From contig JADLSH010000379.1 of NCBI GenBank assembly GCA_016169945.1, positions 2,942,001 to 3,006,000 on the forward strand: a stretch of DNA of 64,000 nucleotides. The letters are read 5' to 3'. The stretch's first letter is position 1; every line of letters begins with the position of its first letter. Both the position numbers and the translations under genes were made by a program. The notes under the pieces are model-generated. The model was not told where the DNA came from, made no database searches, and saw nothing but the letters and a program-made list of their open reading frames with translations. This document shows positions 26,801 to 62,546 of this stretch, in pieces. This DNA comes from Trachythela sp. YZ-2020. Lineage: Eukaryota > Cnidaria > Anthozoa > Malacalcyonacea > Clavulariidae.

Positions 26801-28572
26801 CACGTGTACCCGGAATATTGCAGGCTTTGCGATTTTATTACTATCATTTACAGCTCTGTTGTATATACCTATATCTGCAGGAAGATGCATTGTCACTTCT
26901 TTTTGTGGAATAAGACATTTTGATTGGAGTTCAGCATTATCTCTTAATACACCCTAAAACAACATAAAAAATAATTTATCCTTGGTTTCCATTTGGTTAC
27001 AGTCAGTTGTCATGGTCGTTGTGTGGCGTATGCAAAAGAAGTCTTACTGATTGCAGAAATATATCATGAGACTCTATATAGTGGCCAATTGTACCTGATC
27101 TTTCGACAAAATGGACTGCAAAGTTTGACGAGTTTCATGCCATGCTGCATGACCAAGACTCATGAACTTATTCAATGTTGCCTATAACAAAAATTATTGA
27201 ATGGTAATAGAACATATGCAAGGTGAGGTTTAATGGTTTGCTATGTCGCTGCTGACACATGGACTCCTATGGATCATAGTAGGGTGCCACTTTCGGGTAC
27301 ACTCAGGGCGCGAAATAACGGCTGGAGGGTTGCCAGTCAAGGTGACCGGCCAAACCAACTTTAGCTCGGACATCCCGCATTTCTGGCCGGTCAAATTATT
27401 CAGCTAAACTAAAGCCTGACAAAGTCCCTTAAATGTTAAATACTTAATGTAACTAGAAAAATGTCTGTAGAAGTCAAGAATCACTTCTGAGTTTTATTGT
27501 AAAGTCCGTACAGTAAATATTATTCAAAGTAAACGCAACATCAGAAGAAATTAACAAAGAACATAAGTTTTGACAGTTGCAGCCACTGTGTGCCGGCTAT
27601 TTTCACTTGTCAGCAACTTCGAAACTTAATCCATGAGAAAATTGCATGAAAATAGTTTGCTCATTCGCTTTATTTAGCAACTGAATTACATGTAAACTTT
27701 AAAAAGTAGCCAGTCAAAATGACCGGTCATGCGAGAGAATGACCGGACAACTACTCATTTTTGCCGGACATTGTCCGTTGACCGGCCGTTATTTCGCGCC
27801 CTGGGTACACTTTTAATGAATAGTGCTCAGTTTTTGTGAATATCAAAGGGTGCTTTCTATTTAATGACCAGACCGGTCAGACCAGAATTTCTGTGTCTGT
27901 ATTGATGGAAAGATCTGGTCCAGATTTTTTGAAAATCTGGCTAAAATGGACCTCCTTTTGATTTGATCTAAATTTTCCAGTCAGACCAGTCCTAAGCCCA
28001 AAGATTTTGTGTTCCATTTAACAATTTGATCGATCTGACCGGTCTGACCGTGTTAATGGAAAGCGCCCAAAGTTTGCAAAGTACCCTGCCTTGGACACAC
28101 CCCCAACCTGCCCCAATTTCAAAATGGCTTCCAACCAGAAATATATATACTGAAGTCAAATTTTAGTCAATCACCAACAAACAAACATATTTATTTGTAA
28201 CTTATTAACTTTTACATAGTCAATATTATACACAAACCTCCTCAAACACATTTTGCTGAGATTTCATAACAGGGCCATTAAAAAGATGTTTTATTGCTTT
28301 CAAATTCAGTACATTGTCACCTATTGCCACGCCAATACGATGGGCACTCTGTACAAATACAAGAGAAAAAAACCCCAAAATTTAATACACATTTTAAAGT
28401 GTACAAACTTCAAAAGGCACATTGCATTTTACACCAAAAAAACAGAAAAACTGTGTCAAAAACCAAAATACGACATGTTTTTTTAACTTACATCGCTCGA
28501 TGTTGAAAAGACTCCATAAGGCAAGTTTTGAATTGGAAAATGAGAATCAGGAGACACAGAAATGAAAGACAT
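20843..28572 (-). CDS. FAH: Fumarylacetoacetase, complete, 13 exons, 419 aa
   Basis: Hydrolyses fumarylacetoacetate to fumarate and acetoacetate, the last step of tyrosine breakdown; cytosolic. Exons (minus): 28572-28492, 28348-28238, 27181-27095, 26953-26869, 26541-26451, 26194-26097, 25849-25797, 25725-25672, 25551-25506, 24458-24328, 23613-23538, 22344-22196, 21040-20843. Lengths sum to 1260 bp with every phase matching, giving 419 aa, the human length. Start [20 protein letters not shown]. The metal and catalytic residues are present: Asp in DYTDFYSSR, the following REHATN His, Glu pair in DFELEMAFF, Asp in MNDWSARDIQ. C-terminal signature [20 protein letters not shown]. Starts 850 bp from receptor A on the opposite strand. 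Exons 1-4 lie inside the segmental duplication; exons 5-13 do not. Confidence 0.97.
22420..22891. mobile_element. Non-autonomous DNA transposon in the FAH intron between exons 12 and 11
   Basis: Terminal inverted repeats GAGGCCCTGTTAG / CTAACAGGGCCTC, flanked on both sides by ATTACA, which looks like a 6-bp target-site duplication. The interior carries several copies of 'aataatccataatcc' on both sides and no coding capacity. Length 472 bp. Confidence 0.75.
23024..23376. mobile_element. Hairpin MITE in the FAH intron between exons 12 and 11
   Basis: Ends AATAGACAATTTGCATTATA and its inverse, with longer inner inverted segments ('cggaaaatatagcc', 'aaatgttgtaaaatgcgg') facing each other around a centre near 23190. 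It is about 350 bp with no open frame. Confidence 0.8.
24040..24218 (-). repeat. tRNA-derived SINE in FAH intron
   Basis: On the minus strand a tRNA-like head ('acttcggtgtcgcagtcgtc', with B-box 'gattcgattctcgct') leads into the 'ctccgggtactcc' body. It is the same family as 57900-58100. Intact enough to recognise both Pol III boxes, but clearly a repeat. Confidence 0.7.
24645..24725. repeat. ACAAGTTGT-type short palindrome cluster
   Basis: Repeated words such as 'acaagttgtaac', 'caacatgttg' and 'gcaacttg'. The same cluster appears at 25215-25310, 45310-45590 and 62200-62490, always AT-rich and flanked by SINEs or gene ends. The mobile origin is not clear. Confidence 0.5.
24722..25215. repeat. 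Second head-to-head tRNA-SINE pair
   Basis: The left arm (about 24722-24895, minus orientation) and right arm (about 25020-25195, plus orientation) are inverted copies of the same SINE as at 2450-2838, with heads toward the centre. The outer ends share 'gtagatggaatactcgaac'. The same geometry at two unlinked sites suggests the paired form may be the mobile unit. Confidence 0.8.
26240..26390. repeat. Three tandem copies of a unit of about 50 bp in FAH intron 5
   Basis: The unit 'aaaccaggaaacattgtttc' followed by 'ccatgttt' recurs three times. A related single copy lies near 18995-19060 in GPD2 intron sequence. Confidence 0.65.
26597..26640 (+). repeat. (GGTC)n microsatellite at the left edge of the duplicated unit
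   Basis: Seven or eight copies of GGTC followed by related 'ggtcagttggtaggtctg' sequence. The duplication junction near 46600 restarts in this same kind of sequence, so this simple repeat may have mediated the exchange. Confidence 0.85.
27304..27803. mobile_element. Non-autonomous hAT element in FAH intron 2
   Basis: Inverted ends CAGGGCGCGAAATAACGG / CCGTTATTTCGCGCCCTG with a perfect 8-bp target-site duplication GGTACACT (27296-27303 and 27804-27811). CAGGG ends plus an 8-bp duplication are diagnostic of hAT. The copy at 48072-48572 has the same target-site duplication, so insertion predates the segmental duplication. Confidence 0.92.
27848..28068. mobile_element. Hairpin MITE in FAH intron 2
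   Basis: Ends GGGTGCTTTC and GAAAGCGCCC, with inner inverted segments rich in 'gaccggtc' and 'gatctggtc'. Present in both duplication units (second copy about 48615-48815). Confidence 0.75.
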
Positions 28573-28964
28573 TTCGAATTTTAGTGAAGTTATTGCTAAA
28601 TTTCAACAAGAACTATTATTTAAAATCTAAAACTTCGAGCTCTGAGCCTTCTCCACGTGTATGGAATTTTATATAATTTCTGAACCTCCTTCTCGTGTAT
28701 GGAATTTATAGAGAAGAATCACAGCTAACCCAAAACAGTCAAAGTCAAAACTTATTCACTGAGATTCTAATAAGAGGGGAAATTTTTGGGGGGTTAATAG
28801 CTCAGTGACCAGAGCTCGGTGACCTTCCTTCCCCCCTCCTGCTTTCGATCAATTCGATGTTAATCGGTGTCGGCACAGAATAGAGATGAGGTGTCGGTGT
28901 GTAATCGGGCATAGAATCGGGGAATAATCGGAAATACGTCAGGGCATAGCCCACCCTAGCGCAA

Positions 28965-29082
28965 GTAGCCTGCTCGCAGACGTTGTTTTTCTCACGCCAA
29001 GCGACGGAAAAAAACAGCGTTTGTTTCACGCTGTTTTTTTCCGTCGCTTGGCGTGAGAAAAACAACGTCTGCGAGCAGGCTA
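28965..29082. mobile_element. Near-perfect hairpin MITE, hAT-like, between FAH and receptor A
   Basis: The arms of about 50 bp ('agcctgctcgcagacg', then 'ttctcacgccaagcgacgg') are almost perfect inverse copies around a short loop. The 8-bp TAGCGCAA stands on both sides (28957-28964 and 29083-29090). Unit 2 has the empty site with a single TAGCGCAA near 49660, proving insertion after duplication. Confidence 0.93.
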
Positions 29083-29103
29083 TAGCGCAAGCTGTGAACA
29101 ATA

Positions 29104-29271
29104 GGGAGCTTTAGCATAGATATAATTTAGCAAACAGAACGCGACGTCAAAGAGGACGTGAAAATGGCGTGGGCACATCCATAGATGGGCATATCACTCC
29201 ATTTTTTACGCCATTCACGTCCTCTTTGACGTCACGTTGTGTTTGCTAAAGCCAGTGGCTAAAGCTCCCTA
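29104..29271. mobile_element. Second hairpin MITE between FAH and receptor A, 3-bp target duplication
   Basis: Ends GGGAGCTTTAGC and GCTAAAGCTCCC with inner inverted copies of 'gacgtcaaagaggacgtga'. The empty site in unit 2 (near 49677) fits a 3-bp target duplication (ATA or AAT depending on where the ends are set). This would suit PIF/Harbinger or CACTA-type elements. Confidence 0.85.
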
Positions 29272-29422
29272 ATAATGCTGCGTGCGGTGAACTAAAATAT
29301 TCTGTTTATTTTCTCAAGTCGGTTAGAGCGTTTCTAACAAGGAATATACAAGAGCGTCTCTCTACGATTCTATCTCGAATACTGTGGGGAAAATACTGTA
29401 AATTCAAGCTATTAAAACCAAG

Positions 29423-29659
29423 ATGTGGAGCAGTCATTTTGCGTTTGCGGCGTTGATTATTATTACAAGTGCTTTGATGAGTGAAGGTGCGTATTGAAAC
29501 ATTTGATCTTTAAATTTACCACTATTATTGTAAATATATTCCAGATTCATATATCTTAATTTAATTTGTAATCTTGTAAATATTTAATATTCTACTGAAC
29601 GAGGGCCACTAGGTTATTAGTGTTCGCACTATTATGTGTCACCCTCTTAAAATAAAGTT

Positions 29660-29720
<61 letters not shown>

Positions 29721-32700
29721 TTGCTTTTCGAAGCATCGTTATAATAGCGTGAGATTGTGTCACGATATTGAATAATGTTACACTTTTAAAGAATACACTA
29801 TTCAATTCATGTACTAACTAGTTTCTATGCTTGATTCTAAATTGTTTAACCGTATAAATCGTTTGTATTTTGTACGCATTTCGTGTACAAATGTAGACTA
29901 CACATTTTATCGCCATAATCAGACGATGGCCGACAATAGCTATCAAATTTTACATGTACATTCTTGTCGCAAAACCGACAAAAATAACGTGTCTGTTATA
30001 GAATATTTATAACATATTAGATTATATAACATATCATTGAAAAGAAACGTTAAACTTTTAATTCTCAAGGGAAAGAATTCGGGAAATATTTACAGCCAAA
30101 CCGGATGTTGTCTTGCGAGCAACATTGCAATATTGCTACGCAATTTGCAAATTTGATTGGTAGATTGCTCGAGCAATTTGCAAACGGTTATCGCAGATTG
30201 CCGCGTGCGTTTGCTCATTTACAGTATTTTGAGGACTGGTTTGCAAGTTTTTTCGTCGAAAACCCAATTGAAGTCTATAAAGACCTACTCGAACAAGTTA
30301 GAAAAGTTATTCCTGTTATGAGAGAGATAAAGGACGAAGAAATGATATTTAGTAGCAAAAGTATCATGTTTGTTCACCGCGAAAACAATAACAGTCAGAC
30401 AAGTCACAATTTTAAAAGTATTGTATTATAAAACAAAGAAAACGTTACATTAATTGCTTTATTAATGTAACGCCCGATTTATTGAATAACAACAATTTGT
30501 GTATAAATGATGAGTGTCACAACAAACCCAACTCAACCAAAAAAAATATAATTAGACATATAGTTTCATATAGTCACTGTTCAAAGACAAAGTACGCACT
30601 GTATATATTACTTATACTATACTATTTTCGATTTTTTATGTTGTAGAATTTCTAAAGGCTTCTATCAGAATGATGTAGGTTTTCACAATCCTCTGAAGGT
30701 CGATGTTTATACAAGTATCTAACTGAATATCTTTGTACGATACCGGTATTTTAATTTCTTCGTCCTCTATCTCTCTCATAACTGGAATAACTTTTCTAAC
30801 TTGTTCGAGTAGGTCTTTATAGACTTCAATTGGGTTTTCGACGAAAAAACTTGCAAACCAGTCCTCAAAATACTGTACAATGACTTGGAACATCGTGAGC
30901 GAATGAGCAAACGCACGCGGCAATCTGCGATAACCGTTTGCAAATTGCTCGAGCAATCTGCCAATCAAAACAATGTTGCTCGCAAGACAACATCCGGTTT
31001 GGCTATAATAATGCTGAATACAATTGAATTGGAAATAAGAAGCATGTTTTTGTCAAAAATGAAGGGAGGCTGAATTTATAGTGTGAATTGTTTTGCCGTC
31101 GACTTCTAGGCCTAAAGGCAAAATAATCTAGTGGCGTTGTGTGCTAGGCACAGTTTTGTGTCTTACGCACGAACTGCGTATTAAAGACTGTAAGAAAATA
31201 TATTGCCTTGTGTTTAAAACGTGTGCGGCTGTTTTAATGTCGACTGTTTACCGGTTTGCAAACATGCAATATTGCTAGTTATTTTTTACAAATATCCTAA
31301 AAATATATTACAGTACAATGTAAACGTATATGTACAAATATTTGCATTTACCTGGTATTACAATTGTAATATCGACAAGAATTAGACTGCTTTTATGCAG
31401 TTTAGACAGTCACTCAGTCAGACACTTGCTGAATTTTAATATGTATTCATAAAGTTTCAGATATAATATTCGTAGAACTTAAAATATGTTACAATTTTTA
31501 GATTAATTTTGTTCTTTTGCATTCAACTGGCTTCATTTGGATTCTAGATCAAAATTTGGAAATTTGATGTTTTCTTATTCAAAAAATATTCTAGATGCGG
31601 GCTTGTAATTGTACGTAGCTGCACTTGTGCCTGTTGTGTTTTGCCATGTTTTGTCAATCATCGCATGTCAATCGGCCCGTTGAAATGACGGACTGGGGGT
31701 TTACATACACTATCAAAGTTTACTTGAACAAAGTACAGTTTGATCAAAATGTGTGAAGTGTAAACTTTTTCCGAAGATATTGATCAAAGCCCAAATTTTT
31801 CACAATGTAAATCAGCCTTTAGAGGTTAATACACGGGAGCGTAGGTAAAGAGCCTGGGAACGAGGTTGGCTTAGAAGTGCCAGTAGTTCGTGTGAGCAGG
31901 TATTTATTGGTTAAAAAAATATCTTAATGCGCTAGGATAGGAAATGAGTCTCATACCCGCATTATAATGACATAGGGGGTCAAGGAAATGCCATGATTAT
32001 GTTTTATAAGTAGCCCGATGATTGACATAAGTTTAGTCAAAGGTATTCAATTATGAATGTAATCTCGTCATCAAAGTGGATTATTTGTAACACTTTAACA
32101 CTGCAATACTGTTGTTGCTCCTTCTCTACCACCACTTTACAATTATCTCGAAAATTAAATCATGAAACTTTTGTGTGCACTTATTGATGTCAATTTTTTG
32201 GGGGGTTCCGACTTTTCTGGGTGTGTTTCCCCAGAAATTCTGCTTTTGAGCTTCTAACGCCAATTTTACTTGTCAGTGGTAGGGTACTGCCAGTTAACAG
32301 GTTAAACAATAGGCATATGCAAAAACTTTGATGCTCCTTCCCCCTTTAGTTGCATAGTACGACCCCCTGGTGCAAAGTTAGGCTCTTCACACCAGATGCA
32401 TGACACTGCACTAATTCCAGCACACCAAAGTATGAATTTCTGTGTGACCAACTTGAACTGGATGAATTAATGTAAAGTTCTGAATTTGTCCTATCTCATG
32501 TGAACGTAGTTCTAAATCCTGAAATATCTACAGATGATTTGATTTTTTTTCTTATCTAAATTTCTAGCATTAATGAAGCCACTAGGAAAGAAACTCACAT
32601 GCTATGACACTCTCTCAAAAAGTGGAGATACATGTGAAACGACATTTTCATGTTATGCATACCTAACAAACAGAATTAGCAATGTGCCTCATTATGGATG

Positions 32701-35700
32701 CATTGTCACGGAAGTCTCGCTGTTATTTATGTGTAACACTGAAGCTACACAGGACTTCACTGGCCATTGTTGCAAAGAGGACATGTGCAACAAACATTTA
32801 AATTTGACTTTGTCTGATCTAAGCTTTGTGGAAGAAAAACCTAGTAAGTTTGTTTTTATTTAATCAGTTGAGCCTCTTTTTCTGGACTCCTCTCAATATG
32901 GACAGCTCTCTAATATGGACAGCTCTCTAATATGGACAACTCCCCAATATGGACAGCTCTCTAATATGGACAGCTCTCTAATATGGACAGCTCTCTAATA
33001 TGGACAACTCCCCAATATGGACAGCTCTCTAATATGGACAGCTCTCTAATATGGACAACTCCCCAATATGGACAGCTCTCTACTACTGACACCTCTCTGA
33101 TACATATACCTCTCTACTATTAACGCCTCCTGAATACAGATACCTCTCTAATACAGACACCTCTCTATTATGGAGTATGTACTCCTCTCTAATACAGATG
33201 CCTCTCTAATACAAACACCTCTCTAATATGGACACTTCTCTAATACAGATACCTTCTCTATTATGGACATCTCTCCAACACGTACACCTCTCTAATACGG
33301 ACACCTCTCTAATACAGACACCTCTCTAATACATACATCTCTTTAATACGGACACCTCTCTAATACGGACACCTCTCTAATATGGACACCTCGCTAATAC
33401 GAACACCTCTCTAATACGGACACCTCTCTAATACATACATCTCTCTAATACGGACACCTCTCTAATACAGACACCTCTCTAATACGGACACCTCTCTAAT
33501 ACAGATACCTCTCTAATACAGACACCTCTCTAATACGAACACCTCTCTAATACAGATACCTCTCTAATACGGACACCTCTCTAATACAGATACCTCTCTA
33601 ATACAGACACCTCTCTAATACGGACACCTCTCTAATATGGACACCTCTCTAATACGAACACCTCTCTAATACGGACACCTCTCTAATACGGACACCTCTC
33701 CAATATGGACACCTCTCTAATACAGACACCTCTCTAATACAGACACCTCTCTAATACGGACACCTCTCTAATACGGACACCTCTCTAATACGGACACCTC
33801 TCTAATACGGACACCTCTCTAATACGGACACCTCTCTAATACAGACACCTCTCTAATACAGACACCTCTCTAATACGGACACCTCTCTAATACAGACACC
33901 TCTCTAATACGGACACCTCTCTAATACGGACACCTCTCTAATACGTACACCTCTCCAATATGGACACCTCTCTAATACAGACACCTCTCTAATACGGACA
34001 CCTCTCTAATACAGACACCTCTCTAATACGGACACCTCTCTAATACGGACACCTCTCTAATACGGACACCTCTCTAATACAGACACCTCTCTAATACAGA
34101 CACCTCTCTAATACAGACACCTCTCTAATACGAACACCTCTCTAATACGGACACCTCTCTAATACGGACACCTCTCTAATACGGACACCTCTCTAATACG
34201 GACACCTCTCTAATACGGACACCTCTAATACGGACACCTCTCTAATACGGACACCTCTCTAATACGGACACCTCTCTAATACGGACACCTCTCTAATACG
34301 GACACCTCTCTAATACGGACACCTCTCTAATACGGACACCTCTCTAATACATACATCTCTTTAATACGGACACCTCTCTAATACGGACACCTCTCTAATA
34401 CAGACACCTCTCTAATACGGACACCTCTCTAATATGGACACTTCTCTAATACGGACACCTCTCTAATACGAACACCTCTCTAATACCGACACCTCTCTAA
34501 TACGTACATCTCTTTAATACGGACACCTCTCTAATACGGACACCTCTCTAATACGGACACCTCTCTAATACGTACATCTCTTTAATACGGACACCTCTCT
34601 AATACGGACATCTCTCTAATACGAACACCTCTCTGTTTCAGCTGACGAAATGACAAAGGTTGTATATGTTGGTTACTGTCGGACTGTCATTATCGCTATA
34701 TGTATCTCAGCACCAGTATGTCTCATCAGCCTGGCAGTTATACTTTTCATCTACCTACGTTTATCCACACTCCACAAAAATCTTATTGAAAGTGATTTGG
34801 AATTTGGGGAGAGCAAGATGCCTGAATCAGGTGGGTTTGCATGTCACTGGTTAGTGCATGTGCCTTTCATCACTGTGACTGGAGTTTGATTCCAGCAATG
34901 TGCAGTTTTCTGATTATAATTTCGCCTCAGTTGCATGCAAGAATATACCATTTTGCTTCCAGTTTGACTCTACCAAATACCACAGGTTTTCTCCAGGTAC
35001 TCCTGTTTCGAATTTTTTTTTTTTTTTTTAATTCGCCCAAAATATATTACATTGACAAATAAAATAAATTATTTACAAGAAGTGGGCTAGGGACCTACTA
35101 GAAACTGTAAGGCTTTTGTTTAAGGCCCCTAGCTTATGAATCTTATTTATTAATGATATATATACAATATGGTGGCAGTTCAAGTGTTATAAAGGAAGAA
35201 TTATGATATATAAATATAGTTCGAAATAGGATACATACTAACATAGGAATGAAGAAAATAAATCTGTATGACTTATTTACAACCAGTTACATTTAACAGT
35301 TTGAAGGAGGTTGATATTTGTTAATCTAGTTATATAAGAAGAATTTTTTAATATGTTTTTTGAAAGACGCATAAGACCTACTAGTAGGTTTTTTATATTG
35401 TATGGGAAGATTATTCCACACTTCTATTCCTTTGTTTGCAAGAGTGTGTTTTGTATAATTTGTTCTATAACTCATTTTATGTAGCAATGATGAGTTTCTT
35501 AATAAAACAATTCATATATTATTATATTTCCATCTAACTTGGATACAGGGAGTGGATCGGGGCTTCCATTATTGATTGAAAGAACTATTGCGAGACAAGT
35601 TATCTTACACGACTGTATCGGGAAAGGTCGTTATGGTGAGGTGTATCGTGGGAAATGGCGAGGCGAAGACGTTGCGGTAAAGATATTTTCCACACGGGGC

Positions 35701-38700
35701 GAATGCTCGTGGCGAAGAGAAACCGAAATGTACCAAACTGTCAGGTTAAAACATGAACATATCTTAGGTTAGTTCATTCAACTTGTTTGTCTTCTAACTT
35801 GGGTGAATTATGTTAGATGATGAGCAGGGGTCGATAACTTTTTTGTGTGCCTGGGACTGCAAAAACTATTTGAAAATGTGCCTGCAAAATGTCGAAATAT
35901 AAAAATGCGAAATCATAACGTGATGAGCCATGAATTACTATATTCGACTGACTCGGCTCAGCCCTTTATTGTTTTAAGTACTTTCTCTACCGTCATTAAC
36001 TATACTGTTAATAAGGGCTAAAGTTATTTGTCCATAATTGGCAGTTTTGATAGTTCTTTTAACTTCCCATCAATGACTTATAACAAGCCTTACAAAATGT
36101 GCCTGCAAGTTGTTTTGTTTCTGAAATGCGCCTGCGACTACTGGTCCCAGTGGTCCCGACTTATTGACCCCTGATGATAATGCTACTCCAAATGGCCTCC
36201 ACACTGGGCAAGCTGAAAAATTACTTGACTTCATGCTACAAGGCCAGGAGTACAAGCATTTAAGTTATTTCTGTATATTCTTTACTCATATTTTTACTGT
36301 ACAACAGTTTTTCGCTCTCCCAATTAGTGTTTCAGTAAGTGTTACAGGGCAGACAAATTAACCCATTAGCTTGCAATGCGCCCAGATGCGCTCTACTTTA
36401 GTATTTTATCCTGTCTAACGCCAGACAATTTTACTCGTCAGTGGTAGGGTACTGCCAGTTAATGGGTTAACAAAACTATCTGCCAGTGTCTCTTGTTAAC
36501 CCATTAGCTTGCAATGCGCTCAGATGCACTCTACTTTAGTATTTACTCTGTCAAATGCCAGACAATTTTACTCGTCAGTGGTAGGGTGCTGCCAGTTAAT
36601 GGATTAACAAAACTATCTGCCAGTGTCTCTTGTTAACCCATTAGCTTGCAATGCGCTCAGATGCGCCCTACATTAGTATTTTACTCTGTCTAATGCCAGA
36701 CGATTTTACTCGTCATTGGTAGGGTACTGCCAGTTAATGGGTTAAACTACATCTCTCATTTATATTTATTTCCCTCCAAGTACAAGGCTACTACAGTACA
36801 TATATTGAAAATAATTGATATATTTCCTCACGCTGATAACTACCGGTAGATCACCATCTGCTGCACGATAGTGCTTAATGACATCAACTTATAGGTGGGT
36901 TTCACTATTAAAGCACCATCATACAGCAGATGGTGGTCAACTGAGTGAAAACAAACAAACATCAAAGTGAAAACAACATAAATTTTATATATTTATTGAG
37001 AGATGTAGTTTAATTTGCTTGCTCCTGTCAACAGTTCTGAAGTCGACCATCGCTACATTATTTTGCTTACTGAAACACATAGATCTACAGTATATAATAT
37101 ACATGCATAACCATTTACGATGATAAATTTGCTTCAAACACACCGGTTCATAATTTTCTCTGTACTTCATACACATTGCTCTGTTTTTCAGGATTTATCT
37201 CTGCGGACATTGCGGACAATGAAGACAATGGCACACAACTCTGGCTCGTCACAGATTACCACAGGAATGGCTCATTGTGTGACTATCTCACCAACATCCA
37301 TGAATTAAATATCAACTCTATGTTAGATATGGCCGTATCTATTGCCTCGGGACTGACACATCTACACATGGAAGTCCGCGGGACGCGAGGAAAACCAGCC
37401 ATCGCCCACAGAGACTTGAAGAGCCGTAATATCTTGGTCAAAAATGATGGTAAATTTTTGCTATTAGAAAACTTATTATGCTGTACTGGGGTTCCACAAT
37501 AGGGTTGTTAAATCCAGACTCCTTTAATTCAGTTTAACATTAATGTGCCCGGCACACTGTAAACGCTATGGGCCTTTAGTTTGCATAACACTCAGCATGA
37601 CAATATTGGAAATCAGTCGAGATCCAGTGATCAGAACGTTCCATTATCTTTTCATTGTTTTGAAAATCCCACTGTTCTACATGCCAGCCAGTCACTCATT
37701 GTAAAGGGCCAAGAAAGATTTGAGGAATGAAATGCCAAGCAACAGGATTCAGAATAGGTTATTGTTGGCAACATTCACTCACTAAATTTGCACCCTGCAT
37801 TCACCACGGATTAAATCGTTATTTTTCAGGTACATGTTGCATTGCTGATCTGGGCCTCGCAGTGTATTACGACGCTTGCAACCATTCATTCGACCTGCCA
37901 TCAGGAAACCGTGTTGGCACGAAACGTTATATGGCTCCGGAACTGTTGGATGATATTGAACCCAAGACTTTCCATGAATTCAAAAAGATTGATATTTATG
38001 CCATGGGCTTGGTACTTTGGGAGATTGCAAGGCGATGCGCGTTCTCAGGTATGTAAACAATTGAGCAACTTTCCATGTATTAAATGTTTCAAGATGATCG
38101 TACAATAACGTTGGTGAATTTCCATCACGAAATTTTATGTTAGTATTAGATTAGTTTCAAAGTTAGGATAAAGTAGCATTTGGGTTAAGATTGGGATCGC
38201 ACGGATTAGGGATTTGTGTTAGGGTAAGGGTTAGGAATTGGGTTAGGATACAGTAAGGATTACAAGGATTATTACGAATAGTTGAAGGGTATAAGAAATT
38301 GCTGTTAGTGTTGAAGTTGTGGTTCTTTATAATGAAATTGATTCAAATGATCTCATCCATAATCTTCATAATTCCATCACTCCATCTTATGGGTCTTAAG
38401 GGTCTGGTCTTCTTGTGTATCGTCTTCATGTAACTCGATCTCTTCATTCTCCATAAGTTCAATCTCTTCCATAATCTTAATTCCATCACTCCATCTTACC
38501 CTTTGTCTTCCTCTGGAACTTTTCCCATTATTTAAGGGTCGGACCTTCTTGTGTATCGTCTTCATGTAACTCAATCACTTGCATCATCCTCCGTAAGTCC
38601 AATCTCTTCCATAATCTTCTCAATTCCATCACTCCATCTTATGTCTTTCTGTGTGTCCTTTTACTGAAGTGTCGAAACGTATCTGAAACTCAAACTTTTA

Positions 38701-40385
38701 TATATCCGTACATTTCCACAGGTAACTCGAGCGAAGAGTATCAACTGCCATACTTCGAGAAAGTTCAGTCAGACCCCAGCATTGAAGAGATGAAAGAGAC
38801 TGTTTGTATTGAGAAATTCCGACCTTCTATTCCAAAGACATGGAATCAAAATCCGGTAAGATATGTTGCTCAGCGTTGACGTGCGGGCAGATGCCTTGCA
38901 TTTTGCAGGCTGATGGCGGGTTAGGGCGAGTGACATCAGCCTGCAAAATGCAAGGCATCTGCCCGCACGTCAACGCTGAGCTATATATATAAACTTATAT
39001 TATATAAACTTTTATACATGTATTTGTGTATGGCTGTTTTAAAAGCTGGGCTCTTATATTTATTAGAATATAATATATATTGCTCTCCAGCAAGACCAAG
39101 GGTGGGCTCCCTGTGTCACAGACGGCTATTACGGATCTCACCGAACTGTGGCATTGCATCAAAAATTCGTATCGCTACCACTCCCACAAACGTCTACGAC
39201 CGCACCAACATATTTTTGCATGTTTACAATTCTAATAATTAACAGCCAATCAACTTTTTATAGCAATTGTTACTAAGCACCGGATTGGCTGTTTAAAAAT
39301 AGAATTGTAAAATGCAAAAATATGCAATGTAGGTGTGGTCGTAGACGTTTGTGGGAGTGGTAGCGATACGAATTTTTGATGCAATGCCACAGTTCGGTGA
39401 GATCCGTAATATATATTTTTTTTTGGGGGGGTAGCCGCCTACTTCAAATGATTCTGACAACCCTAGAGTACCCAACGAAAAACCCTCGAAACATAGGATA
39501 GAACCAACCACAACTCGCCTTACATGCATGAGTTCTCAAGCACATCAAGTCTGTGCCGGGTATAGTCATCCATCCGAAGTAATACCCTACCCTGGACCAA
39601 TAGTAGCAGACTCAACTCAGCGGTAGGGGGCAGCGCGAATAATCGCATATTCCAGTAGTGTAATTTAACTTTTTTGACCACTTGCGATCAGGGCAAGTAC
39701 GACATGAAAAATGGTCCCTGAATAAAATTCACTTGCCATTAGATCAAGCTTTGGTTCACATCATCACAAAATTGAAGCAAATGATTGCAGTAAGCATGAT
39801 ATGTTGATGGATAACTACAATTTGCATTATATAACACCAATCTGCACCAATCACCATTCTCTTATTTTCCTTAAGTAGTTAAGAACTGAAGTTGAATTTA
39901 AGTCGAGGCACAATGTTCGTCGTACAATGGTCGGACAAAATGTCGGTCGAGGCATGTTCATATATTCACATTTTTCAAATTATCCAGAAGAATGAATAGT
40001 TAACGTTACTGGTCTATATTTTACTCATTTAATACTGTACTTGGGGATAATAACTTAGAGATGGTCAACTTGTTCTGGCAAAGCTGAAACAGAAAGCATG
40101 CATGCAACTTGCCAGATCGGGCAACCAAGAAGAAACTTCTACTTGCCTGTAATGATTTTCACTTGCCCCGGGCAAGCGTTAAGTTACACCACTGTATTCC
40201 TATATGTTATTACTACAAAAAGAGATTAACTAACGCATTTCATCTCTCTACCGTTACAGATCATGAAAGGTATGGCCAGTATTGTGCAAGAATGCTGGTA
40301 CGAATGCAGCGATGCCCGTCTCCCCGTGTTGCGAGTCAAGAAATCTCTGATCAATCTGAAATGTAACGATCCAGTCGATGTGTAA
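29423..40385 (+). CDS. TGFBR1-like: Activin/TGF-beta type I receptor kinase, copy A (diverged), 494 aa
   Basis: Membrane Ser/Thr kinase that relays activin/TGF-beta signals to SMADs. Exons 29423-29486, 32568-32843, 34642-34830, 35549-35767, 37192-37449, 37830-38048, 38722-38855, 40260-40385; 1485 bp, all phases match. Order: signal peptide, activin-receptor ectodomain (LTCYDT to CCKEDMCN), transmembrane helix ([20 protein letters not shown]), short GS box [10 protein letters not shown], kinase. Catalytic parts are intact: [14 protein letters not shown] lysine, [17 protein letters not shown]. Against copy B it lacks RDR after the membrane helix and 12 residues ([12 protein letters not shown]) before the GS box. 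Its L45 loop reads [13 protein letters not shown], where B has [12 protein letters not shown]. No frameshift, so probably functional but altered. Confidence 0.95.
29496..29720 (+). mobile_element. 5'-truncated LINE 3' end with (TATC)n tail in receptor A intron 1
   Basis: About 165 bp of 3'-UTR-like sequence ('gaacgagggccactagg', 'aataaagtttctatc') running into a TATC microsatellite, a common CR1/RTE-type LINE tail. It is absent from unit 2, where 'gtgcgtatttgctttt' is continuous. The flanking TATT is doubled, as expected for target-primed insertion. Confidence 0.8.
30093..31005. mobile_element. 913-bp foldback element carrying the same ORF in both inverted arms
   Basis: Long inverted arms (about 30093-30345 and 30755-31005) begin CAGCCAAACCGGATG and end with the inverse. 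TA is present on both sides (30091-30092, 31006-31007), and the empty TA site exists in unit 2 near 50272, so insertion followed duplication. Each arm is open for about 80-110 residues and encodes the same protein segment ([19 protein letters not shown], then [20 protein letters not shown], then [10 protein letters not shown]). The left arm lacks about 25 bp present in the right arm. TA duplication and CAG ends fit Tc1/mariner-type mobilisation. The ORF family is unknown to me; a captured host exon or a transposon protein is possible. Confidence 0.85.
32870..34640 (+). repeat. Expanded 17-bp minisatellite in receptor A intron 2
   Basis: About 100 copies of 'acctctctaatacggac' with single-base variants; the first part uses a related 'agctctctaatatggac' form. 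It runs right up to the 3' splice site of exon 3 at 34642. Unit 2 has only about 0.4 kb of the same array (52125-52530). Confidence 0.95.
34836..35010 (+). repeat. SINE directly after receptor A exon 3
   Basis: tRNA-like start ('actggttagtgcatgtgcct', B-box-like 'gtttgattccagca') followed by the body 'aataccacaggttttctcca'. Shared with unit 2 (52778-52950), so it predates the duplication. It begins within about 20 bp of the splice donor. Confidence 0.65.
35020..35515 (-). pseudogene. LINE 3' fragment with the end of a reverse transcriptase, receptor A intron 3
   Basis: The minus strand encodes the usual LINE protein end: [19 protein letters not shown], then a Lys-rich tail and a stop near 35326, followed by a 3' region that starts with a T-rich run at 35020. 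Unit 2 retains only the first 180 bp of this fragment (52975-53155), then differs. Confidence 0.7.
36360..36750 (+). repeat. Three tandem copies of a 125-140 bp unit in receptor A intron 4
   Basis: The unit runs from 'aacccattagcttgcaatgc' to 'ctgccagttaatgggtta', present three times with a few differences. Unit 2 has the same array at 54414-54797. A partial relative sits at about 32260-32310. Confidence 0.85.
36845..36945. mobile_element. Small hairpin MITE in receptor A intron 4
   Basis: 'gatcaccatctgctgcacga' is mirrored by 'catacagcagatggtggtc' about 60 bp on. The same family occurs near 5450 and 22390, and in unit 2 near 54895-54990. Confidence 0.6.
38395..38650 (-). pseudogene. LINE-like protein tail fragments in receptor A intron 6
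   Basis: The minus strand reads [19 protein letters not shown] between acidic repeats of [11 protein letters not shown] type, resembling the 'GRGRQRxRW' end of LINE ORF2 proteins. A fuller open form lies in unit 2 at 56442-56693. Left of it (38160-38285) are degenerate 'gggttagg' words. Confidence 0.45.
38868..38992. mobile_element. Hairpin MITE just after receptor A exon 7
   Basis: Arms of about 50 bp ('gctcagcgttgacgtgcggg', 'gatgccttgcattttgcagg') are near-perfect inverse copies. It starts about 13 bp from the exon 7 donor at 38855. Unit 2 lacks it and instead carries about 690 bp of other sequence, including a SINE. Confidence 0.85.
39105..39415. mobile_element. Foldback element of about 300 bp in receptor A intron 7
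   Basis: The left arm 'gacggctattacggatctca ... aaaatatgttggtgc' type sequence is mirrored at 39320-39410 ('ggtgagatccgtaata' end). Unit 2 keeps only the left arm (58300-58400), so the right arm and loop were deleted there. Confidence 0.8.
39425..39655 (-). repeat. tRNA-derived SINE in receptor A intron 7
   Basis: Related to 15120-15372: body motif 'gtacccaacgaaaaaccctc' and a head-side 'actcagcggtagggggcagc'. Diverged, and absent from the corresponding interval of unit 2. Confidence 0.6.
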
Positions 40386-40576
40386 AATGCATGAGAACGT
40401 GAAGGAAAACATTGGTTGTGGAAGAGAGAGGTGAAGTATAGACAAGATAGACAGGTTTATCAAAGTGAACTTTATGGAAAGTTTAACATGGATTATGTGG
40501 CGGAAAAACAAAGGAAACCTTTGCTTGGTCGGTGTCTTTATACAGAAGTTGGAGCCAAACGTTGCAAGCATTATTC

Positions 40577-40727
40577 AAGGCTCTTTTCCACTCGTCGCAA
40601 AAACCAACTCGCAAGCTCGCTGCGAGTACTTTCATCCAATCACAATGCTCGACAGTTTATTTTAATTACATGCAAGAACTCGCAGCGAGTTTGCGAGTTG
40701 GTTTTGCGACGAGTGAAAAAGAGCCTT
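40577..40727. mobile_element. Hairpin MITE in the 3' flank/UTR of receptor A
   Basis: Ends AAGGCTCTTTTCCACTCGTC and the inverse, inner inverted 'aaccaactcgcaagctcgct'. It lies about 190 bp after the stop codon and is likely transcribed as a stable stem. The identical element sits at the same place in unit 2 (59304-59454), so it predates the duplication. Confidence 0.85.
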
Positions 40728-41100
40728 AACTTAGTCAAATTGACTACACAATGTTACAGAAAGACAGTTTTTACCATTTTCTTTTAGCTTAGTCTTTTGG
40801 AGTAATATTTGCTCTCTTATTATATATATAGTACTTTTTAATTATTCGGGTTTGCGAGGACTCGTCTTTTTTACTACGATAGGGAGCTGTTCAAATGTAT
40901 AGAGTATAAGCCAGTTCGGAGTTTCGACCGCGCATCCAAATGACGCGTTCTGCGTCGGGATAAAATTGCAGTTGAATCATAACATGTAGCTGAGACTGGA
41001 AGAATTATAATATGCATATCGAAGTATTCAACTGTTCAATCATTATTTGAATATGCAAAAGTTGCTCCAAGAAGTTCAAGAACAATTGGTAGTCCCCCTA

Positions 41101-42462
41101 TACAGGGTGTCCCAAAAAAAAGTGACACTATAGAAATTATCCTATTGTTATAATTTGAATGCCTGAGCACTACAGGGTGTATCAAAAAAAACGCAACCTC
41201 GGAATTTCCCAAGAAATCCACTTTGTTCTTAAGAACAAAAGATTTTAGGCCCCTGGGAATTTAAAATAGCTTCTAATCGTATTCCAGGAGCATAACTGTC
41301 GAATTACTAATAGGTCTTTAAATTGTGCATAAACTTCTGCTTCTGGAATTTAAAATAACTCCTATTACCATAAAAATCAAATTACATGTAAATCCATACA
41401 TCAGTTCGATAACAATAATGGTTCAATTGACTACAGAGCAACGAGTATTTGTTGTAATTTACCTAATACCGAATGTAACCGCAGTGCAATAATCGAGGAA
41501 TTCAACGCTTTACGGCAGCAGCCTGAAATGATTCGAAATGTGATGCGCGGAATTCAGAGGCGAACCATTCTTTGTGCCCATAGTTTAAACATTAATTTAA
41601 TCAATTGTTGTTACGTGTAAAATAAAAAGCAAACCGTTTATTAGTGTAATCGTTTTGCTTGACACGGGCGTTAAAATATTTGGAGGAAGCGAAAACGTTT
41701 TAAAATGCTTAAATGTAAATACAATTTCATTAAATTCCCAGGCGTGTAATCACGCGCGTTTAAGAGCGGTTTAAGAACAATGAGATAATTTCTATAGTGT
41801 CACTTTTTTTTGGGAAACCCTGTAGAAATCACTCTTTTGTTGTTAAACGTGCGTTGTTATACCTCTGGGAATTTAAAATAGTTTCTAAAACGAACAGCAA
41901 CACAAAAATGTCAAATTACAAATTCGTCTTACCGTCAGTTCGAGTAAGAATGGTTTAACTGACTACAGAGCAACGAGTATTTGTCGTAAAACCATTTGTT
42001 TGAGAAATCGTTTTGCTTGCTTCAATCATCGCGTTAAATTATTTGGACGAAGGGAAGTTGTAAATACTTCCGCCGTTCATGTACAATTCAATTAAATTCC
42101 CAAAGGTATAATAACGCACAAGAATGATTTCTAAAGGGGGACTTTTTTGGGGACACCCTGTACAGGGTGTATATAAAAAAAGTAGATCCTTTCAAGTTCA
42201 AATTAGCCATAACCTATTGTAGTAATTTGACAGCCCTAATTGCTTCGAATTAATGGTGCGCATAAACACAAGGTCGTATACACGTGGGAAATTTAGGATA
42301 CCTGTACATGAACGTCACGTTATTATTAATTTCCCATGTGTATACGACCTTGTGTTTGTGCGCATCCATTAATTAGAAGCAATTAGAGCTGTCAAATTAA
42401 TACAATAGGTTATCGCTAATTTGAATTTGAAAGGGTCTACTTTTTTTTTTATACACCCTGTA
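41101..42462. mobile_element. Nested mariner-like elements downstream of receptor A
   Basis: At least two elements are stacked. One spans about 41101-41824 (ends 'tacagggtgtcccaaaaaaa' / 'tttttttgggaaaccctgta'). Another is a palindrome at 42161-42462 ('tacagggtgtatataaaaaa' / its inverse). Between them are further ends and two decayed copies of a start-like segment, LTTEQRVFVV (near 41430 and 41960), resembling DUF4817/HTH transposase N-termini. The whole cluster sits at a TA in unit 1 and is missing from unit 2. Confidence 0.75.
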
Positions 42463-42609
42463 TGTGAAACACAAATGAATGATTGAACAGTTGAATACTT
42501 TGATATGCATATTTTAATTATTTCAGTCTCAGCTACATGTTATGATTTAACTGCAATTTTATCATTGCATTTGGATGCGCGCAGTCGAAACTCCGTACTG
42601 GCTTATTAT

Positions 42610-43256
42610 CATAGATATAGGAGACATAGATTGCTGACTCGAGGTCACGGCACGCGCCAACATGAAGAATTCAAAATGGCGGCTGAACCGGTCAAAACAT
42701 CAAGTGACCTAGTCAACGTACGTCGCTTTCAGCAACGTTCACGAAAAGATACTTCTTTTAATATGTTTATTGCCCTTGTGGACGTATAAACACATCAATT
42801 TGACAGGGAAAATAATACAAATTACCTTCGATTCATGCTGATTTAAGTTCGGCGAAATCACATATAATTTTTAGGCCGCCAGCTCGTAATACACAAGTTT
42901 GTCGCCCTTAGAAATAATCCAGGAATAACTCTTTCAACTTTCTATTAGACATCATTGCTCCAAAGGGCAAAAATATTGCAAAACGTCAACCGTGAGCTCA
43001 CTGAAACCAGCCAAATGTTTGTTATTCCAAAGAAAAACCGTCCACAACACGTCTATATTGAATACACTCCACGGTAATGTGAAATTACCGCTGTTATTAT
43101 CTAGCAAATGCTCCCATTAAGCTTCGTTCATCGAGTCACTTGAGGCGACATCATACAAAATGGCTGCTCAACCGGTCAAATTTTGTTTGAATTTTGGCGC
43201 ATTTGTCAATATAGTGACGTATTACGAGTCAGCAATCTATGTCTCCTATATCTATG
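42610..43256. mobile_element. 647-bp non-autonomous hAT-like element
   Basis: Inverted ends CATAGATATAGGAGACATAG / inverse, about 32 bp, with a perfect 8-bp target duplication CTTATTAT (42602-42609 and 43257-43264). Unit 2 has a single CTTATTAT at the matching place near 60530. No transposase frame remains. Confidence 0.93.
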
Positions 43257-43669
43257 CTTATTATACACAGAAAAACCGTTTTCCCTGACAAGAAATATCT
43301 TATGTTAGACGATTCTACTTCGACTCTCCAAGTGGCTCCGCACCAGGCCACACACTTATGTTATACGGTAAGTGTTTAATTGAAGGAACAATGCAAAGTC
43401 ACCCGTACCCAAAATCATATAAACAGCCTCTCTGACTGTGTTTAAGTGGTATTGCTAAAGCACACTGTATTATAGATGGTTTTATAAATAATTTTGCACT
43501 AGATATAGTGAACATTTAGTTGTAGATTTAGTGACATTTATTATTAATATTATGTAGAGAGCCTACTGTAGTTGTGTGTATTTTTGTCACTATTATTAAC
43601 CACAGAATGTAAGAAATATATTATAGTACATTGTGCCATTGTGTTGTGTCGATTTGTATGCTCGTTCGT

Positions 43670-44735
43670 TGCTTCGATGGGAGATAACATGTTTAAAATA
43701 GCATTTACAATCATATGATTGATGGTCAGAACAACAGAACATAAGTTCCTAATTAAGCCCCACCAAAGAATTACAATATTAGATATACCTAGCTATTACA
43801 AAAAAACATTAATATTAATTATTTACAACTATATAGGAATTACATTTATGAACAACAGTTTGACTGTAAAGAACGACACTTACTACACAAAATTTTCCAA
43901 GTTCTAGTACGGTCTACATCGAAAGTACTGTTCAGTCTATTCGTATAATATAGATATAGTTTAGATTTAAGTATAGTGACTGAAGAGGATGATTTGATAT
44001 CTGAAGGCAAGTTATTCCATAAAAATACAATTCTATTAAAGTACGAGTTTCTGAAGAGAGACGTTTTACACAGATTTGGACGAAGAAGATCACCAGAACT
44101 GGAACGAGTGGAATGATGGAGAGGCTGGGTAATAAACTGATTAATGTCAAGTTCGAACATCCCAGATTTGGATTTGTAGAAGAAGATGATATCTTTAATT
44201 TCATGCCAGTAAGAAAGAGGGATTAGGTTAAGTTATTTTATATTATATTACCAACAAGTATCTTGCGTTATAGCTCTCACGAACTGCGAACATGCACAAT
44301 AGATCATTAATCTTGGCAATATTCTATGACAACATTAACGAACTTGAAGACACAGACGACATAACCACTAACTTAAAACAACTTAATTAGCACAAAATTA
44401 TTTATTCTTCAAATACTGTCACACCTAACAAACTACTTTTCATAGAGTCCTTAGCTACATATCAAATTCAAAAATCCATTCCTAAACACAGGTCTTAAAG
44501 CAAGCGAAGATCTAATCCTTTTTCCACAACACTTCATCTCACATTATGCTCTGTTACCATGCATGCATTCTTTCTGGTCATTAGTGCCAATGCTTTTTAA
44601 TTTCTCTTTGTTGCTTGATGATGTAATGTTCCTGGATCGCTTGTAAATACTAGCTCATTGGTTTGACAATGATTTTGGAATAAAATCGAAATATCACAGT
44701 ATATCGTGTATACTTGTTGATAACTCAAATGTTGA
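43670..44735 (-). pseudogene. 5'-truncated LINE with the C-terminal end of reverse transcriptase, unit 1 only
   Basis: The minus strand is open from about 44225 to 43846 and reads YWHEIKDIIFFYKS, FRNSYFNRIVFLWNNLPSDI, then a Lys-rich tail, the usual end of a CR1/L2-like ORF2. The upstream RT core is missing. The matching interval in unit 2 (near 61605) lacks the insertion. Confidence 0.75.
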
Positions 44736-45309
44736 GCGAAGAAGATGCTTTTGTTCGGAGTATGTTTTGTGGTATTGTGGTCATAAAACCGCAGATATGT
44801 GCTATCAAATCCCATCCGTGTTGTTAAAACTTAAACTTTTCAAATGCGCAACTTCCTCACTAACGGTCACGCGCGCTCTTTCGCAGGCGTTCGACCAGGA
44901 CGAGACTGGTCTAGTTAAAGTCCCCAAACTCAAGTTTAAACTCTGCACGAGTATCATTATTTTAAGATCACAAACACTTACTTTCCAATAACTTCGTAGC
45001 TTGGTCATTTTATCAGTTGAATGCAGATGAATGACGATCGATAACCTTCAACCTCCAATTTTCTGAATTTCCGTTTAATCTTTTATCGCAGACATGGATA
45101 GAATCCTGATCCACGCGCGACTATGCATAACTATGTTGCATCATCCATAATATGAGCATCCTCAACCCTAATTAAGAATACAACATTGGTTAACCATTCA
45201 CACAATGGCGCATCAAGGCTCATCACTTAATGTCAAGAATATACTATGCACTAATTGAACGGCGCGTTCTTGGTATAGGTACCACGTATATACTACCCCA
45301 CACGAAAAA

Positions 45310-45590
45310 ACGCACAGGTTGTAACAAACCTGCAGGAGATTTGTACCAATGCTGTTTCAAAAACTTGTAATCAGGATGTGTTCGCACTGCTTGTTCCCAA
45401 GGTGTGGACAAGTTGTCAACAGCTTGTTGACAACTTGCTACAAGGTTGTTGACTCAACAGACTCGTTACAAGTTGTTCCAACAACTTGTTATCGTCTTGC
45501 AATTCAACAAGTTGTAAGTGACAACCTTGTAGCAACTTGATAAAATAACAACATTGTTACAACTTGTTGACAAGCTTGCTACAATTTCCC
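45310..45590. repeat. ACAAGTTGT palindrome cluster, unit 1
   Basis: A dense run of 'aacaagttgt', 'caacttgttgacaa' and similar words. The unit 2 equivalent is 62200-62490 with small length changes. Confidence 0.6.
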
Positions 45591-45643
45591 AGGGCTACTA
45601 CTATATATCAGCGCCCTGGGTTAAACTGTGCCACTTGAATTAC

Positions 45644-45740
45644 CTGATCAGATTTATTTTCTAAGTGCATCTTTTTGAATTTCAAATAACCAACTGGTGC
45701 AAAAGCATCATCAGAATGAATGACTACCTCTTGTGAATCA
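45644..45740 (-). pseudogene. DPH6: Stranded duplicate of a DPH6 3' exon
   Basis: A 97-bp exon with intact splice sites (acceptor CAG at 45741-45743, donor GTAATT below 45644) encoding [20 protein letters not shown] and then [12 protein letters not shown], the C-terminal region of diphthine-ammonia ligase. Its own 5' exons are not upstream: the duplication junction at about 46600 cuts it from them and places FAH exons 1-4 there instead. It is an orphan piece of DPH6; the intact locus is at the right edge. Confidence 0.85.
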
Positions 45741-46589
45741 CTGCAAAACGGAAATGAAAGTATCCGTATTAGAGAGGTGTCTGCAGGGTCTTGGCTATAG
45801 GATTTTAGATTTTGGGAGTGCTTCTTCATTTCCAGGGAGTGTCCCTGTCAATTTCCCGGAACAGCGCAAAACACCGTTTCAGTTCTACTCGCCAACGGCC
45901 TTTCTCAATTTGGACTTTTATGCATTGTTCTATATGCGTTACAACCAAATAATAGGCACCATACGCTCATATTCTACACTATGACATTACAATTTTACAT
46001 TTACTGCAGGGACTCTTGTTACATTTAAAGCTATTTTAACACCAATATGGTATTATGGTTCTCATTACTTATATATCTAAAGAAAAAACATCACATCATT
46101 TAAGTAGCAACATTCTATTTTATAAACCTACACACAGCTTTATACAAATGATCGAGCCGCGTTCGTACTATTTTGCAGTGTTGGTGAACACGGCCATCTA
46201 GCTAGGGCCTCGGCTAGGGCCCTGCTCAAACGAGAATGAGAGTTGGCGAGTGAGATTCTCAATTCTCATGCCCGGTGAAACGAGAACAAGAGAGTCAACT
46301 GCATGGATTAATCCAAGCGCGTACCAGTCAAATGAGCAAAAACTCTCATCAAAATTTGAACCGGCTGAACAGTCGATGAGTGTTGGCGGTCAAACGCGAG
46401 CGAGAGTTGCAACTCTCATTGACTCTCGTCAAAATTTGAACCAGCTCAAAGTTGATGAGACTGTATGAGATCTGATGAGAGTTGGTGGTGAAACGCGAGC
46501 GAGAGTTGAGAACTCTCATTGACTCTCATCCTCGTTTGACAAAGGGCTTAAGATCATGGATTAAGAAAATATAGTACTGTCCGTAATAG

Positions 46590-46612
46590 AGACGCCAGTT
46601 CAGATGGTAGGT
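46590..46612. other. Junction of the tandem segmental duplication
   Basis: To the left, the sequence follows the DPH6 intron (as at 63735-63765: 'ccgtaatagagacgccag'). To the right, it follows FAH intron 4 (as at 26628: 'cagttggtaggtctgtcag'). The change takes place within a few bases around 46600, with a shared CAG. Confidence 0.85.
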
Positions 46613-47505: not shown

Positions 47506-47616
47506 GGTTGGTTGGTTGGTTGGTCAGTCAGGATGGGTATTTATGCATGTGTACCAGGAATATTGCAGGCTTTGCAATTTTATTACTGTACTATAATTTA
47601 CAGCTCTGTTGTATAC

Positions 47617-49331: not shown

Positions 49332-49827
49332 TTTGAATTTTAGTAAAGTTATTGCTAAATTTCAACAATAACTATTATTAAAATCTAAAACTTCGAGCCT
49401 TCTCCACGTGTATGGAATTTTATATAATTTCTGAACCTCCTTCTCGTGTATGGAATTTATAGAGAAGAATCACAGCTAACCCAAAACAGTCAAAGTCAAA
49501 ACTTATTTACTGAGATTCTAATAAGAGGAGAAATTTTTGGGGGGTTAGCTCAGTGACCAGAGCTCGGTGACCTTCCTTCCCCCCTCCTGCTTTCGATGTT
49601 AATCGGTGTCGGTGTGTAATCGGGGAATAATCGGAATACGTCACCCCATAGCCCACCCTAGCGCAAGCTGTGAACAATAATGCTGCGTGCGGTGAACTAA
49701 AATATTCTGTTTATTTTCTCAAGTCGGTTAGAGCGTTTCTAACAAGGAATATACAAGAGCGTCTCTCTACGATTCTATCTCGAATACTGTGGGGAAAATA
49801 CTGTAAATTCAAGCTATTAAAGCCAAG
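49332..49827. promoter_or_regulatory. Compact divergent upstream region of FAH copy and receptor B
   Basis: 496 bp between the two opposing start codons, without the two hairpin insertions present in unit 1. This is likely the ancestral form of the shared promoter region. No TATA box is obvious. Confidence 0.55.
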
Positions 49828-59112: not shown

Positions 59113-59303
59113 AATGCATGAGAACGTGAAGAAAAACATTGGTTGTGGAAGAGAGAGGTGAAGTATAGACAAGATAGACAGGTCTATCAAAGTGAACTTT
59201 ATGGAAAGTTTAACATGGATTATGTGGCGGAAAAACAAAGGAAACCTTTGCTTGGTCGGTGTCTTTATACAGAAGTTGGAGCCAAACGTTGCAAGCATTA
59301 TTC

Positions 59304-59454
59304 AAGGCTCTTTTCCACTCGTCGCAAAAACCAACTCGCAAGCTCGCTGCGAGTACTTTCATCCAATCACAATGCTCGACAGTTTATTTTAATTACATGC
59401 AAGAACTCGCAGCGAGTTTGCGAGTTGGTTTTGCGATGAGTGGAAAAGAGCCTT
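59304..59454. mobile_element. Hairpin MITE in the 3' flank/UTR of receptor B
   Basis: Same element as 40577-40727 with one arm changed by a single base pair of consequence (GATGAG for GACGAG). It lies 191 bp after the stop codon. Confidence 0.85.
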
Positions 59455-59664
59455 AACTTAGTCAAATTGACTACACAATGTTACAGAAAGACAATTTTTA
59501 CCATTTTCTTTTAGCTTCGTCCTTTGGAGTAATATTTGCTCTCTTATTATATATAGTACTTTTTAATTATCCGAGTTTGCGAGGACTCGTCCTTTTTACT
59601 ACGATAGGGAGCTGTTCAAATGTATAGAGTATAAGCCAGGTCGGATTTTCGACCGCGCATCCAA

Positions 59665-62490: not shown

Positions 62491-62546
62491 CCCAGGGCTA
62501 CTACTATATATAAGCGCCTTGGGTTAGACTGTGCCACTTGAATTAC

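Follow-up and report, generated by a model that had tools for sequence, protein, structure and literature searches.

A tandem duplicate of an ALK4/5/7-class receptor gene lacks the first GS helix and carries an altered L45 loop

The window analyzed here, a 64-kb stretch of DNA without Ns, contains a head-to-tail duplication, and each of the two repeated units carries one complete eight-exon gene for a type I receptor (Table 1). These genes, here called copy A and copy B, had been recognized as tandem receptor copies in the initial annotation, and the gene models bear this out. The gene content points to an animal. The collinear blocks shared by the two units are mostly 90 to 99.6% identical (85% in the final block) and are interrupted by copy-specific insertions. 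The window includes both boundaries of the repeated unit, with differing sequence outside them. Similar TTGG-type repeats occur on either side of the unit with copy A, a pattern as in unequal exchange; such a repeat was also looked for at the right end of the unit with copy B and was not found there.

Two foldback insertions with inverted arms lie 154 to 457 bp upstream of the ATG of copy A, the nearer end being 154 bp away, and none is present at the corresponding place of copy B. The first has 55-nt arms with 100% complementarity and is flanked by TAGCGCAAG repeats, and the second has 37-nt arms. The introns hold further copy-specific sequence. Intron 2 is 1798 bp long in copy A versus 440 bp in copy B and contains, in copy A, a 17-bp tandem array (32884-34634; consensus GGACACCTCTCTAATAC, 102.7 copies). 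Intron 1 of copy A alone has an insertion (30090-31008) made up of two inverted arms, with stretches of 38, 68, and 124 nt that are 97 to 99% complementary; each arm has an open frame, the two frames encode related words, and neither gave a Pfam match. Within intron 6 of copy B, an open frame (56437-57204) resembles by eye the end of a LINE-type reverse transcriptase; the only Pfam hit to this frame, ALKBH8_N, falls just below the cut-off (20.1 versus 21 bits).

Table 1. Positions in the window of the duplicated units, the two receptor genes, and the segments that differ between them.
Feature	Position	Strand	Basis or remark
Duplicated unit with copy A	26778-46598		collinear matches to 47523-63764
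Duplicated unit with copy B	47523-63764		collinear matches to 26778-46598
Two foldback insertions upstream of copy A only	28966-29082 and 29104-29269		inverted arms
Copy A, type I receptor, 494 aa	29423-40385	+	spliced translation without stop; GT-AG at 7 of 7 introns
Copy A exons	29423-29486, 32568-32843, 34642-34830, 35549-35767, 37192-37449, 37830-38048, 38722-38855, 40260-40385	+
Copy B, type I receptor, 508 aa	49828-59112	+	spliced translation without stop; GT-AG at 7 of 7 introns
Copy B exons	49828-49891, 51816-52091, 52532-52765, 53620-53838, 55239-55493, 55900-56118, 57451-57584, 58987-59112	+
9 bp of copy B (RDR, juxtamembrane) absent from copy A	52648-52656	+	junction in copy A at 34757/34758
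36 bp of copy B absent from copy A (first GS helix and residues before SGSGSG)	52726-52761	+	sequence comparison, Pfam GS motif
End of exon 3 of copy A, site of the 12 missing GS residues	34818-34830	+	junction at 34826/34827
L45 loop of copy A	37203-37241	+	three residues gained and two lost against copy B
L45 loop of copy B	55250-55285	+	as in human TGFBR1

The two proteins are identical at 468 of 491 aligned residues. By eye, both have a hydrophobic leader and a single transmembrane segment, and both ectodomains have eight cysteines and a CC....CN box. Copy A has a ninth cysteine, at residue 126, just outside the membrane. This residue was gained through a G126C change in the exon at 34642-34830, adjoins the transmembrane segment, and might allow disulfide-linked dimers to form.

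Pfam finds the Pkinase and TGF_beta_GS domains in both copies. In copy A, the Pkinase match (120.5 bits) is that of a serine/threonine kinase of the type I class, and the Activin_recp match is weak, at 21.0 bits just above the cut-off of 20.9; copy B gave no Activin_recp match at an E value of 0.001. The best PDB match of copy A is TGFBR1 (435.6 bits), compared with 219.4 bits for the best type II receptor, and copy B matches the human TGFBR1 chain 1b6c_B with 480.8 bits. The catalytic motifs of copy A are unchanged and complete, so this protein should be a kinase. A pseudogene with a disabled frame or disabled splice sites can be rejected for copy A, which is otherwise an open gene, as the initial annotation had it, without a stop and with GT-AG at all seven introns. 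A BAMBI-like pseudoreceptor was likewise rejected, as the kinase domain and its catalytic motifs are present.

Twelve residues of the GS region are absent from copy A, as are the three juxtamembrane residues RDR. The 12 missing residues align with LKDLI-YDMTT, which precedes SGSGSG in TGFBR1 and corresponds to the first GS helix. In line with this, the Pfam GS motif covers positions 1 to 28 of 28 in copy B and only positions 11 to 28 in copy A, where this partial match still scores 33.5 bits against a cut-off of 21.3. Copy A retains the three GS serines as well as the second GS helix. Copy B has a Tyr at the position of Thr186 in TGFBR1, a residue listed in PMC12222301 among those reported to be phosphorylated.

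The importance of the L45 loop for SMAD choice, on which the initial annotation relied, is described in the literature (PMC7175140, PMC2713245, PMC2772021, PMC9824381), and three consensus L45 loops are distinguished in PMC2772021. The loop ADNKDNGTW of the ALK4/5/7 class, which goes with SMAD2/3, is reported from a scallop as matching vertebrates and oyster (PMC3510168). This loop is present in copy B, identical to that of human TGFBR1, which agrees with the class originally assigned to this copy; copy A does not match it. The loop letters had been read correctly in both copies, with codons GCG GAT AAC AAA GAC AAT GGG ACA TGG ACA CAA CTC in copy B and GCG GAC ATT GCG GAC AAT GAA GAC AAT GGC ACA CAA CTC in copy A. 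Copy A was said to gain two residues, to change K to E, and to lose TW. The K-to-E change and the loss of two residues (6 bp, TGG ACA) stand, but the gain is three residues (9 bp), giving a net length of plus one, and an A-to-S change just before the loop had gone unmentioned. Three silent changes complete the list of substitutions.

The 9-bp gain is an imperfect tandem repeat, with GCGGACATT beside GCGGACAAT, and the 6-bp loss adjoins a repeated ACA. A 9-bp imperfect tandem insertion plus a 6-bp loss is the most economical account of the loop in copy A, both indels being of a kind that replication slippage makes. A search of the window for a gene conversion donor, with words of 12 to 13 bases from the loop of copy A, found them shared with copy B only; words of 11 bases gave three further scattered matches (8554, plus strand; 43642 and 61577, minus strand), none inside a receptor gene. 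Gene conversion from within the window was thus rejected as the source of the loop, no donor being indicated.

Loop length was compared with the four human receptors in the PDB (ALK1, ALK2, ALK5, and ALK6) and with statements in the literature. These four align without a gap at the loop, and copy A is one residue longer than all of them. To speak of a rewritten loop is an overstatement, as ADNEDNGT in copy A still resembles ADNKDNGT in copy B. Residues D266, D269, and N270 recur in copy A at an unchanged distance from β4, and the string N-x-D-N-G-T lies three places further from β4 and two places nearer to β5. The BMP-class loops (SDMTSR.SST in ALK1/2; ADIKGTGSWT in ALK3/6) were not matched (ALK1, ALK2, and ALK6 were the receptors compared), and BLOSUM62 scores of the loop region of copy A were 104 for ALK5, 88 for ALK2, and 87 for both ALK1 and ALK6. 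On these comparisons, the loop of copy A is a re-spaced ALK4/5/7 loop, with its motif shifted along the β4–β5 hairpin, rather than a BMP-class loop.

The second GS helix of copy A also carries a Q-to-E change, and three further changes on the side of copy A (M-to-R, R-to-K, and A-to-S) lie between αC and β4. Together with the GS and loop lesions, these appear to share one neighborhood, because in crystal structures of ALK2 the resting GS loop lies buried between the β4 strand and the αC helix, next to the L45 hairpin (PMC7911104). The same source describes the GS domain as mediating SMAD contact and L45 as the tip of the β4–β5 hairpin.

Taken together, these features make copy A most likely a recent tandem duplicate whose SMAD-docking face is damaged, uncoupled from SMADs and perhaps a decoy. 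Spelled out, we put a probability of roughly 45% on copy A being an in-frame duplicate of the ALK4/5/7 class that lacks the first GS helix, has a re-spaced loop, is uncoupled from SMAD2/3, and acts, if expressed, as a competing receptor that signals poorly. Copy A would still bind ligand and the type II receptor; the two lesions would weaken SMAD docking and GS-dependent switching; and the output through SMAD2/3 is predicted to be weak or absent. If expressed, copy A could then compete with the intact copy B for ligand and type II partners. The uncoupling is supported by the location of the two lesions, each in an element with a known part in SMAD activation. It might still fail to be complete: since copy A retains D266, D269, and N270 along with three GS serines and the second GS helix, SMAD2/3 output might survive.

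Several known receptors bear on this interpretation. The GS region, the kinase, and the overall architecture of both copies are like those of TGFBR1/ALK5 and the ALK4/5/7 (Baboon) class, whose L45 loop recurs exactly in copy B. Copy A differs from TGFBR1/ALK5 in the missing first GS helix and in a loop one residue longer, whereas copy B differs at Thr186. Laboratory mutants affected in the same elements as copy A are reported to lose SMAD output. In ALK5, changes of D266 (DA) or of D269, N270, and T272 (3A) abolished Smad2 phosphorylation (Itoh et al., as cited in PMC9824381). In S2 cells, Mad phosphorylation by ALK2 without T189–Q207 was undetectable, although truncation of the GS region raised the kinase activity of ALK2 on casein (PMC10376983). 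Copy A combines milder forms of the ALK2 truncation and of the ALK5 loop mutation, and weak or absent SMAD2/3 output is expected from this combination. The mutants are engineered, however, and the L45 ones are substitutions whereas copy A has length changes. Caution is also due on the ALK2 analogy, because that construct lost the second GS helix, to which the authors of PMC10376983 ascribe its lost SMAD contact, and copy A lost the first and keeps the second.

BAMBI is a receptor-like protein thought to interfere with signaling receptors (PMC7175140), as proposed here for copy A, but it has no kinase domain, whereas that of copy A is complete. EmTRL of Echinococcus and its kin are described as relatives of TGF-β receptors that lost signaling residues after duplication or divergence; EmTRL lost residues needed for kinase activity, which copy A keeps (PMC10073696). 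No title among the matches listed from the open-licence literature names a natural type I receptor with both a lost GS helix and an altered L45 length.

The alternative that survives best is neutral decay: copy A would be a redundant duplicate that no stop has yet interrupted, and its loop and GS changes would be chance losses without a role. Such plain decay is nearly as likely as a SMAD-uncoupled duplicate. It is opposed by the reading frame, as copy A has no stop, no lost splice site, and whole catalytic motifs, and as all four coding indel events between the copies (9, 36, 9, and 6 bp) are multiples of three, compared with 19 of the 89 noncoding indels that the aligned blocks contain (Fisher P = 0.003). 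Among noncoding indels of at least 6 bp, 3 of 11 are multiples of three. Counted at a minimum of 3 bp, the frame argument is weaker, since 3-bp indels are common here: 19 of 36 noncoding indels are then multiples of three, and the chance of four out of four is 0.078. These counts suggest that the frame of copy A was probably protected for part of its history, a moderate case that does not imply protection at present.

Rates of substitution were used to look at constraint. The 1473 aligned coding bases contain 37 substitutions, 14 silent and 23 amino acid–changing, giving a dS of 0.046, a dN of 0.020, and a dN/dS of 0.44 (Fisher P = 0.023); with the loop block removed, the ratio is 0.51 (P = 0.08). 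It is 0.34 for the cytoplasmic part and 1.5 for the ectodomain (one silent change, six not), and the value for the whole gene gives no sign of positive selection. The overall ratio below 1 argues against decay, although it possibly reflects constraint on copy B alone. The cytoplasmic value, like the missing stop and the intact splice sites, speaks for the preferred reading of an in-frame, uncoupled duplicate. The neutral rate was taken from introns 1, 4, and 5, in which 71 of 3675 sites differ (0.019); intron 2 was left out for its tandem array, introns 3 and 7 for poor alignment, and intron 6 for a large insertion. In intron 6, 20 of 664 sites differ (0.030), and in all collinear noncoding blocks 251 of 10058 (0.025). 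The dN is practically equal to the intron divergence (P = 1.0 without the loop), which favors decay. Hence, amino acid changes accumulated nearly as fast as noncoding ones with a ratio still below 1, which indicates that constraint is relaxed but, in the pair as a whole, not absent. The dS lies above the intron rate (P = 0.06 without the loop), for which we offer no explanation beyond small numbers.

Along the protein, the copies differ at 6 of 113 ectodomain residues, 3 of 62 membrane and juxtamembrane residues, 6 of 86 residues between the start of the GS region and the end of the loop, and 8 of 230 residues elsewhere in the kinase. Compared with that remainder of the kinase, the GS-to-L45 stretch has no significant excess of substitutions (P = 0.22), though the excess becomes significant (P = 0.026) when the three indel events there are added; three of the four indel events fall into this stretch, which makes up 17.5% of the aligned residues and was chosen post hoc (P = 0.019). 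A scan of the coding sequence that counted nucleotide substitutions and excluded indels found no significant cluster at the loop (5 in 33 bp, P = 0.17; 6 in 45 bp, P = 0.09), which favors decay. Substitutions that are not enriched from GS to L45 and an unexceptional loop cluster argue against selection aimed at the loop. The initial claim of a change concentrated in the loop does not hold either, given the residues missing from the GS and juxtamembrane regions and the 23 aligned residues that differ across the protein.

The 14 differences in the kinase region were polarized with the human chains, yielding nine changes derived in copy A, one derived in copy B, and four unassigned (two-sided P = 0.021); ALK1 and ALK2 contribute only from LRH onward, which leaves two chains for the first positions, and the sole change derived in copy B sits beside an alignment gap. 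Hence, copy A is the faster copy. Its changes include M-to-V and A-to-V near the C terminus, in the C-lobe, at residues alike in the four human chains and far from the docking face. Decay would be expected to hit constant residues away from the docking face in this way, and the foldback insertions found upstream of copy A only fit the same explanation. In the ectodomain exons (51816-52091 versus 32568-32843), the six differing residues accompany a single silent change, and through these differences ligand choice may differ between the copies too.

It is improbable that the assembly placed two haplotypes of a single gene in tandem by mistake, which would make copy A a variant allele. The noncoding divergence of about 2 to 2.5% would suit this explanation, since it lies within the range of heterozygosity in marine invertebrates. 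Against it stand the lack of Ns, the start and end of the repeat unit within the window with differing flanks, and the TTGG-type repeats, which flank the unit with copy A on both sides as in unequal exchange, though none was found at the right end of the unit with copy B.

The altered or lost SMAD choice suggested in the initial annotation is a fair prediction, but a new SMAD choice has no positive support. That copy A has gained a new preference and founds a new signaling branch is very improbable, for although L45 sets the SMAD class in known receptors, and the loop of copy A matches none of the three human-type loops compared and starts after AD with I, as in ALK6, the loop region is nearer to ALK5 than to BMP-class receptors, its odd length and the loss of the first GS helix (overlooked when the branch was proposed) predict loss more than a swap, the whole-gene ratio is below 1 in spite of the ectodomain count, and both the dN near intron divergence and the nine-to-one polarity point to relaxed constraint.

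Returning to the uncoupled duplicate, we give little probability to its strongest form, in which selection would have kept copy A as a receptor with a live kinase that is no longer wired to SMADs, making it a natural equivalent of the L45 and GS laboratory mutants. If copy A is expressed and selected, it would represent a natural type I receptor split from SMADs with its catalytic core kept, with copy B as a built-in control, and would allow one to test how far the docking face can be reduced before a receptor turns into a decoy. If it is decaying, copy A is an ordinary duplicate that shows only which parts go first.

Two other genes were noted in the window. A minus-strand gene at 7315-10517 has a MANEC domain (68.5 bits); inspection by eye suggests a threonine-rich stalk and, at the C terminus, a membrane segment. 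On the plus strand, a mitochondrial-type glycerol-3-phosphate dehydrogenase gene has its end at 18910-19698 (DAO_C, 140.6 bits).
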